Shown: positions 4,052 to 5,693 of the stretch, in pieces | How the letters are laid out: every line of letters begins with the position of its first letter | Position numbering within the stretch: the stretch's first letter is position 1 | Assembly: GCA_023419055.1 (NCBI GenBank) | Contig: JAEZYO010000870.1 | Location: 1-5,693 of the forward strand | Length of the DNA stretch: 5,693 nt | Direction of reading: 5' to 3' | Source: Pseudomonadota bacterium | GTDB taxonomy: Bacteria > Myxococcota > Polyangia > Polyangiales > Polyangiaceae | Translations under genes and position numbers: made by a program | The notes under the pieces: generated by a model | The model's database searches: none | What the model was told of the DNA's origin: nothing | What the model saw: only the letters and a program-made list of their open reading frames with translations

Positions 4052-4851
4052 GCTCGTCGTTCGACGTCGTCGGCTTCCACGATCTCCGGACGGCGCGCCG
4101 AGTCGCCCTGGGTTCCGCGATCTGGGCGTTCCAGAGCACGGCCTCGACGAACGACCTGGCGCTCGCGGCCGCGAGGGCGGGAGAGCCGCACGGACTCGTC
4201 ATCGTCGCGGACGCCCAGACCGAAGGTCGCGGACGCCAGGGTCGCGCCTGGCACTCTCCGCCCGGGGAAAACCTGCTGGTTTCAATCCTGCTGCGGCCCG
4301 AGCTGCCGCTCGCCGACGCGCCTCTGCTCGCGCTCGCGGTCGGGCTCGCGCTCCGCTCCGCCGTGGTGGGCTTCATTGGTGAGCGCTCGGACCTCGGCAT
4401 CAAGTGGCCGAACGATCTGCTCTGCGGCGGGAAGAAGCTCGCCGGCGTCCTGATCGAAACACAGGTACAAGGTAGCGAGCTCCTCGGTGTCGTGATCGGA
4501 GTAGGTCTCAACCTGGGAACACGCGTGTTCCCACCGGAGATCGCGGCTACCGCCACGTCGCTGTCGCTGCTCGGCGCGGAGTCCGTGTCGCGCGAAGTGA
4601 TGTTGGTGTCGGTCCTCGCGGAGGTCGAGCGCGCCGTCCGGACGCTCCAGACGGGCGGACGCGCAGCGCTCGTTCCGGAGCTCGTCCGACACGACGTGCT
4701 GCGTGGTCGGCGCGTCCAAGTCGAGGGTGTCGCCGGCCGCGCCGAGGGCATCGACGTGAACGGACGACTCTTGGTGCGGGACTCGCTCGGTCGCCAGCAT
4801 GCGCTCGTGTCGGGACACGTCATCGTCGAGGGTGACGAATCCGACGAGTGA
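4048..4851 (+). CDS. birA: Biotin--[acetyl-CoA-carboxylase] ligase (class I, no DNA-binding domain)
   Basis: This enzyme activates biotin with ATP to biotinyl-5'-AMP and transfers it to the lysine of biotin carboxyl carrier proteins, as in acetyl-CoA carboxylase. The 267-residue protein shows STN at 33-35, the biotin/AMP loop GRGRQGRAW at 60-68, KWPNDL at 119-124 (catalytic Lys119), KLAGVLIE at 130-137 and GVGLNLG at 151-157. A small SH3-like C-terminal domain follows at about 220-267. It lacks the N-terminal helix-turn-helix of E. coli BirA, so it should be a pure ligase and not the biotin repressor. The start is GTG 4048, overlapping the nadC stop in GTGA. No good ribosome-binding site precedes it, which fits translational coupling. 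The frame stays open upstream inside nadC (to about 3913), but that extension is Arg-rich shadow sequence. In many bacteria coaX follows birA, and it does not here. Confidence 0.95.
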   Translation: MSSSFDVVGFHDLRTARRVALGSAIWAFQSTASTNDLALAAARAGEPHGLVIVADAQTEGRGRQGRAWHSPPGENLLVSILLRPELPLADAPLLALAVGLALRSAVVGFIGERSDLGIKWPNDLLCGGKKLAGVLIETQVQGSELLGVVIGVGLNLGTRVFPPEIAATATSLSLLGAESVSREVMLVSVLAEVERAVRTLQTGGRAALVPELVRHDVLRGRRVQVEGVAGRAEGIDVNGRLLVRDSLGRQHALVSGHVIVEGDESDE

Positions 4852-5103
4852 ACGGCGCTCGGCGCGCGCGGCGCACGACCGCCACGGCTCTCCTCATCGG
4901 CTCTCCGATAAGGATGCGCCGAGCCCGTCGCGCCTCGCCCCACCGGCGCAAAACGCGCCGAAGGCCCGACAGCGACGTGACGCCGACGCCGGAGGCGAGG
5001 AGTCTTGGCGCCTTTGATGCTGACCGGCGTTTCTGGATTGCAAAAGCGAGCGCGCGGGAGCAGTGTGCGCCCCGAGCGACAACCCGGCGGACCGTGTCTC
5101 AAA
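4852..5103. other. Gene-poor stretch with GC hairpins
   Basis: I see no convincing gene between birA and the terminator-like element. Two perfect short hairpins stand out. One at 4896-4909 has a 5-bp stem (ATCGG/CCGAT, loop CTCT). The other at 4944-4960 has a 6-bp all-GC stem (CGGCGC/GCGCCG, loop AAAAC). Neither is followed by a T-run. An 86-codon frame starting with GTG 4848 crosses the region but is Arg-rich and unlike a real protein. The stretch could be a long 3' untranslated region of the protease-nadC-birA transcript, or could hold a small RNA. Confidence 0.4.
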
Positions 5104-5131
5104 GGTAGCGGAAACCGCCCTTCTTTTTTTT
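5104..5131 (+). terminator. Probable intrinsic terminator
   Basis: GCGG at 5108-5111 pairs with CCGC at 5115-5118 around an AAA loop. Beyond a TA bulge (5106-5107), GG at 5104-5105 can pair with CC at 5119-5120. Directly after the stem comes TTC and then eight T residues (5121-5131). The stem is short, but the T-tract is striking in such GC-rich DNA. It would end plus-strand transcription about 250 bases after birA and insulate the downstream gene. Confidence 0.5.
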
Positions 5132-5133
5132 GA

Positions 5134-5153
5134 GTTTGCAGTTCCCTGCAAGC
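5134..5153 (+). repeat. Inverted repeat / stem-loop upstream of the PHAX-domain gene
   Basis: TTGCAG (5136-5141) and CTGCAA (5146-5151) are perfect inverted arms around TTCC. In RNA the stem extends to 8 bp through a U-G wobble (5135/5152) and a G-C pair (5134/5153). No T-tract follows on the plus strand, so it is not a second terminator for that direction. It lies 55 bases before the ATG at 5209. It could be an operator palindrome or a 5' untranslated stem-loop, and the sequence does not decide between them. Confidence 0.45.
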
Positions 5154-5194
5154 CGAGGCAAGAATCACTAAGTCCACGAGCGGGGGGCGTGGCT

Positions 5195-5199
5195 GGAGG
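5195..5199 (+). promoter_or_regulatory. Ribosome-binding site of the PHAX-domain gene
   Basis: GGAGG sits nine bases before ATG 5209 and supports that start. No clear promoter was found. The best -10-like hexamer, AAGAAT at 5160-5165, lacks a good -35 partner. Confidence 0.65.
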
Positions 5200-5208
5200 C
5201 CTACACAA

Positions 5209-5693
5209 ATGGCGACCGAAGATACGGTGAACACCATCGCAAAGGCGCTGGGTGAGGTGGACGAGCAGCCGATGACGCAGATCACTGGAGTGGTCAAAGC
5301 GCTCGGCGAAGAAGCCTCTCTCTCGTTGTTGGAAGAGACCAAGCGCATCGAGGCGGGCGGCGGGATGATGTTGCCGGACAACAGCCGCAAGCGAACACCC
5401 GGCGGGGTGTTCTTTTTCCTCGCGCGTCAGAAGCTCTCGCACGAGGACAAAGTGAACATCTTCCGACCGGTGAAGCCGCCCAAGCCGGCTCAGCCGGTGG
5501 TCGAGGCAGCGCGGCTGCCGCGCAGGCGCGTGATCGACGTGGCGCCCGCCAGAGAGGTGCCCCTGCGACCGCGCGGCGGCTTCATTCCGCCGGGGCTGCC
5601 GCTCGCGGCCAAGCGCGTTCGCGCTCGAGAGACGATCCAGAACGCTGTCGCGGCGCTGCCTCCCGACGATCAGGTGAACCTGTTGCTCGAGGT
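5209..5693 (+). CDS. PHAX-type RNA-binding domain protein (C terminus outside window)
   Basis: The frame is open from ATG 5209 to the right edge (161 complete codons). Residues about 8-86 match the RNA-binding domain of PHAX, the phosphorylated adaptor for RNA export (Pfam family PHAX_RNA-bd). An N-terminal helix IAKALGE (10-16) is followed by a second helix VVKALGEEASLSLLEETKRI (28-47). Then come the signature GGGMMLPD (50-57), SRKRTPGGVFFFLAR (59-73) and a closing helix ending in NIF (83-85). In eukaryotic PHAX this small helical domain binds RNA such as snRNA. A linker rich in Pro, Lys and Arg follows (86-~137), with PVKPPKPAQP at 87-96, then a probable helix at about 138-161. Basic residues in the linker would suit nucleic-acid contact. 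The gene has its own ribosome-binding site and lies after a terminator-like element, so it is probably a separate unit. The domain match is from memory of the family motif, and the cellular role in a bacterium is unknown. Confidence 0.85.
   Translation, partial: MATEDTVNTIAKALGEVDEQPMTQITGVVKALGEEASLSLLEETKRIEAGGGMMLPDNSRKRTPGGVFFFLARQKLSHEDKVNIFRPVKPPKPAQPVVEAARLPRRRVIDVAPAREVPLRPRGGFIPPGLPLAAKRVRARETIQNAVAALPPDDQVNLLLE

Follow-up and report, generated by a model that had tools for sequence, protein, structure and literature searches.

A bacterial protein with a PHAX-type RNA-binding domain from Polyangiaceae and its relatives in Myxococcota and Chloroflexota

The RNA-binding domain of PHAX is known from a small nuclear RNA (snRNA) export pathway that is confined to eukaryotes. 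Here, we describe a bacterial gene encoding this domain at the 3' end of a 5,693-nucleotide stretch of DNA (contig JAEZYO010000870.1; Myxococcota, Polyangiaceae), referred to as a whole as the window. By profile and by fold, the encoded protein belongs to the PHAX_RNA-bd family. As a good working assumption, we regard it as an RNA-binding protein of bacteria with a genuine PHAX-type domain at its core, probably an RNA chaperone or post-transcriptional regulator. What the analysis shows is the identity of the domain, its predicted fold, its conservation across two phyla and its fusions to nucleic-acid-binding domains; RNA binding by the bacterial protein is what we infer from family, fold and domain partners.

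Identification of the PHAX domain

An earlier examination of the same DNA, the sequence-only reading, had placed a full PHAX RNA-binding pattern at residues 8 to 86 and had proposed a Pfam search and a comparison of the predicted fold with the human PHAX domain. The Pfam profile PF10258 (PHAX_RNA-bd) matched the same residues of the window protein (profile positions 3 to 80 of 84) with an expect value (E) of 3.1e-20 and a score of 72.4 bits, the curated cut-off being 25 bits. It was the sole Pfam match to the 161 residues at E <= 1, and no NCBIfam family was found for the protein. A phmmer search against PDB sequences returned 2w4s (E 2.6e-9) and human PHAX as 2xc7 (6.2e-9) and 8pnt (4.1e-8); the fourth match, 8fre (E 0.082), was below significance. 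The predicted fold superposes on the solved PHAX-type domains 2w4s and 2xc7.

The reading frame begins with the ATG at 5209 and is still open after 161 codons at the window end. The probable full length is given by two relatives of 249 and 250 residues (P0002 and P0003), which are 96% identical to the window protein across the shared part. In total, a protein search yielded 109 relatives, mostly of about 240 to 260 residues, and all except one (108/109) carried a precomputed PF10258 assignment. The relative P0005, encoded on a contig of 37,424 bases, shows no difference from the window protein over 149 residues and then has a different ending at residue 160, possibly owing to a frameshift or an assembly fault.

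All motifs named in the sequence-only reading were located in the window protein: LLEET at residues 40 to 44, GGMMLPD at 51 to 57 and SRKRTPGGVFF at 59 to 69. The count of two N-terminal helices did not hold, since the predicted model of P0003 has three ahead of the loop (residues 4-14, 19-32 and 34-49, the third containing LLEET), followed after the loop by helices 64-75 and 78-85. Among bacterial domain sequences, 20 from Myxococcota and 36 from elsewhere, G52 and G65 were invariant, G66, G33 and R62 hardly varied, and two eukaryotic domain sequences showed the glycines as in the bacterial ones. The loop and the SRxRTxGG segment were among the best conserved parts in both bacterial groups.

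Since an export factor of eukaryotes is the known carrier of the domain, one could suspect eukaryotic contamination or a match by chance. We find this explanation scarcely credible given the nadC- and birA-type genes on the same contig, the 109 relatives of mostly similar length and the E value of the window match. It is refuted by the synteny shared among four independent assemblies (the window, L002, L003 and L004).

Domain partners and proposed function

Chloroflexota proteins fuse the PHAX domain to cold-shock, RRM and OB-like (SSB/PriB-like) domains. The cold-shock domain itself is present in four Chloroflexota PHAX proteins, and two Anaerolineae proteins combine the PHAX domain with an RRM. 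Because of these fusions, RNA or single-stranded nucleic-acid binding is the likeliest role. RNA binding is suggested because relatives show such combinations and because the protein also has basic disordered parts.

The Pro/Lys/Arg-rich linker that had been described after the domain was confirmed by the composition of P0003, where this stretch has an isoelectric point (pI) of 11.7 and contains 9 Lys and Arg, 3 Asp and Glu and 11 Pro. It shows a low predicted local distance difference test score (pLDDT) in the P0003 model, and its residues R105 to R107 and V108 are nearly invariant in 41 sequences. The basic linker and the Lys/Arg tail have pI values of 11.6 to 11.7. A helical hairpin is predicted in P0003 (helices 130-148 and 152-169, block pLDDT 81-91), for which a fold search returned no confident match of its own.

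Based on these features, the PHAX domain would most likely grip single-stranded or loosely structured RNA, like the human domain, with affinity being added by the basic linker and the Lys/Arg-rich tail. The conserved predicted hairpin may serve to bind a partner or to pair two copies of the protein. The protein would then serve as an RNA chaperone or post-transcriptional regulator, with a use comparable to that of bacterial cold-shock proteins; this likeness concerns the probable use of single-stranded RNA binding, whereas the fold differs from that of the PHAX domain. More speculatively, the protein might bind a G-run of its own leader and in this way control its own synthesis.

Several observations weigh against this proposal. 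The partner domains sit in Chloroflexota proteins, whereas the window's kind of protein is without any Pfam-known partner: in full-length P0003, PF10258 was the sole Pfam match and no cold-shock, RRM or SSB domain was found. Further, the PHAX domain alone is not basic, because residues 1 to 86 of P0003 have a pI of 5.3. The gene neighbours of the examined PHAX loci point to no RNA process, and the occurrence in 6 of 377 Myxococcota genomes and 15 of 108 genomes of one family is patchy and therefore indicates no core function. Cold-shock and OB folds also bind single-stranded DNA (ssDNA).

This last point leads to the main rival, in which the protein mainly binds ssDNA or the nucleoid, the PHAX domain being placed on ssDNA and the Lys/Arg tail coating DNA. 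The Chloroflexota partners (cold-shock and SSB/PriB-like OB folds, which are ssDNA binders too) and the high pI of linker and tail would suit such a protein. We nevertheless regard this as unlikely, as the solved structures that match best are described as RNA binders and the PHAX domain is paired with an RRM in the two Anaerolineae proteins.

Further domain arrangements were noted by eye. A divergent Myxococcota branch (L017, L019 and L066; E 1e-7 to 1e-9) forms a sequence cluster with a winged-helix-like end after the PHAX domain, and the end of L058 reads as winged-helix-like as well; Pfam reported no winged helix on L017 and L019. L043:403-2325 appears to contain three cold-shock-like repeats ahead of the PHAX and OB-like domains, and Pfam reported no cold-shock domain on L043.

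Relation to eukaryotic PHAX and to Hfq

In a study on human PHAX (PMC12350170), the protein is described as having 394 residues, mostly disordered outside the domain, and its ARS2-binding motif, phosphorylation cluster, cap-binding complex (CBC) helix (W118) and nuclear export signal all lie upstream of the domain. The human domain binds single-stranded or loosely structured RNA (PMC12350170; title of 2xc7). Since the human export elements precede the domain, which in the window protein begins at residue 8, this protein is no PHAX orthologue: before residue 8 there is no room for the ARS2 motif, the phosphorylation cluster, the CBC-binding helix or the nuclear export signal. The sequence-only reading was thus right in placing the domain at the extreme N terminus and in noting that the eukaryotic export and phosphorylation regions are missing. 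In Cryptosporidium parvum (2w4s), the domain is found within an ankyrin-repeat protein, whereas Pfam reports no ankyrin repeat for the bacterial protein.

The window domain shares 38% identity with the human domain (74 residues compared), 37% with 2w4s (60 residues) and 32-51% with the Chloroflexota loci. Eukaryotic and bacterial forms are therefore nearly as similar as the two bacterial groups are among themselves, as would be expected from either lateral transfer or slow change. When the 80-residue domain was analysed with FastTree, both eukaryotic sequences (the only two used) fell among the bacterial ones at weakly supported positions, and the tree does not decide which way a transfer went. 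One conceivable though doubtful scenario is that of a native bacterial module for single-stranded RNA, shuffled in Chloroflexota and Myxococcota with cold-shock, RRM and OB domains into a family of RNA chaperones in phyla largely devoid of Hfq, with eukaryotic PHAX having taken its domain from such a bacterial source.

Hfq allows a functional comparison at most, its fold being unrelated to the PHAX domain. None of 30 PHAX-bearing genomes contained Hfq. Of 188 Myxococcota genomes, 1 had a match to it over the cut-off, and of 151 Chloroflexota genomes, 2 did. Because Hfq is rare throughout both phyla, its absence from PHAX genomes is no sign of replacement, and the idea that the PHAX protein takes the place of Hfq was dropped.

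Occurrence in bacteria

The bacterial occurrence of the PHAX domain is already on record, as had been surmised from the sequence, because three of the 109 relatives (P0009, P0013 and P0095, two of them visibly Polyangiaceae) are named 'phosphorylated adapter RNA export RNA-binding domain-containing protein' by NCBI and three more (P0058, P0084 and P0090) carry PHAX names from the Joint Genome Institute (JGI). A literature search, whose coverage left subscription papers and preprints largely outside, found no description, among the titles and abstracts listed, of a bacterial PHAX protein or of its function, fusions or spread. New here are the patchy spread in Myxococcota and Chloroflexota, the presence of up to five matches per genome and the Chloroflexota domain fusions.

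Two strict patterns, applied in a non-exhaustive scan of 84,980 species genomes, gave at least 12 confirmed loci, in Myxococcota and Chloroflexota. Profile searches, each of which matched none of 14 control genomes, detected the domain in the 6 Myxococcota genomes mentioned above (5 over the cut-off) and in the 15 genomes from the family of G001 (14 over the cut-off). For Chloroflexota, 16 of 301 genomes were positive; searches confined to a single class and to a single family of this phylum gave 34 of 150 and 22 of 41 genomes, respectively. The maximum of five matches was reached in G012, where one is a fragment at a contig edge, and in G773.

On a plasmid of the cultured Herpetosiphon aurantiacus (CP000876.1:89901-90137), a PHAX relative with 36.7% identity is annotated as hypothetical protein. 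That the family belongs to phages, plasmids or defence systems, for which this plasmid match and the patchy occurrence could be cited, is very improbable: no relative was found in two viral-contig scans or 50,697 phage records, plasmid records gave a match in 1 of 72,556, and P0003 had no PADLOC or PHROG family at E <= 0.01.

Gene neighbourhood and leader

The other genes of the window encode a HEAT-repeat protein (minus strand), a CAAX-protease-like protein, a quinolinate phosphoribosyltransferase (nadC type) and a biotin ligase (birA type). The order HEAT, CAAX protease, nadC, birA, PHAX is common to the window, L002, L003 and L004, and the birA-PHAX pair is also found in L005; L006, L061 and L062 have other neighbours. 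The gap between birA and the PHAX gene measures 357 bases in the window (4852-5208) and about 65, 122 and 170 bases in L002, L004 and L005, respectively.

In Chloroflexota, a short PHAX protein is encoded just 3' of a histidine kinase/response regulator pair on the same strand at L071:6856-9469 and L073:6500-9307. Two-component genes form the largest other neighbour group. The adjoining of L071 and L073 to such genes, together with the patchy occurrence, would be compatible with a loss of nucleic-acid binding, the domain acting instead as a protein-protein module in signalling or another process. We judge this distinctly improbable. The loop and SRxRTxGG segment are strongly conserved in both bacterial groups, fusions to RRM and cold-shock domains exist, and two-component genes, a common kind of neighbour, lie beside two of the four short-form loci examined with wide flanks.

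Features of the PHAX gene and its leader are listed in Table 1. A degenerate form of the promoter-like motif, TTGC(A/G)(G/A)-N17-CA..., was found 66 to 83 bases 5' of the ATG in 9 of 11 Myxococcota leaders, those of L007 and L016 being without it. The pattern matched 11 times in 225,886 bases on both strands, a count that is descriptive only because the motif was derived from the same leaders. A generic sigma-70 and terminator scan of positions 4700-5300 found nothing.

A G-run of at least five within 55 bases 5' of the ATG was present in 10 of the 11 leaders, compared with 5.1% of 44,944 windows from the same loci; the exception, L016, has four G only. Because two leader pairs are near-copies, this amounts to about nine distinct leaders, eight of them with the G-run. 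The protein may bind the G-run, the run may help to start transcription or to bind the ribosome, or it may simply be left over from common ancestry. A hairpin around it, seen by eye in the window and L001, was dropped after RNAalifold gave no pair on 9 of the 11 leaders (L002 and L062 were left out here and in the shuffle test as near-copies of L001 and L061). The folding of the nine leaders did not surpass that of shuffled sequences (z -1.06 to +0.86). The sole Rfam match on 4800-5300, to DnaX on the minus strand, scored 17.5 bits and was thus below the gathering score of 35, and a tRNA search of the window found none.

Table 1. Positions of the PHAX gene, its encoded parts and leader elements in the window
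Feature	Positions	Strand	Basis
Promoter-like motif TTGCAG-N17-CAAGAA	5136..5164	+	Degenerate form at the same place in 9/11 Myxococcota leaders
G-run (six G) in leader	5182..5187	+	G of 5 or more in 10/11 leaders
Shine-Dalgarno-like GGAGG	5195..5199	+	Nine bases 5' of ATG; read directly from sequence
PHAX-domain gene, 5' 161 codons	5209..5691	+	ATG 5209, frame open to window end; Pfam and 109 relatives
PHAX RNA-binding domain, residues 8-86	5230..5466	+	PF10258 E 3.1e-20; fold match to 2w4s, 2xc7
Basic Pro-rich linker, residues 87-129, conserved PRRRV motif	5467..5595	+	Composition in P0003, conservation
Start of predicted helical hairpin, cut by window end	5596..5691	+	P0003 model helices 130-148, 152-169

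Conclusion

With the fusions found in Chloroflexota, what had been a single domain match becomes a group of proteins open to testing. If the bacterial form binds RNA, it would represent an RNA-binding module of bacteria that is little known, in phyla that are mostly without Hfq. If true, the range of domain partners would also help to address the origin of the RNA-binding part of the eukaryotic export factor.
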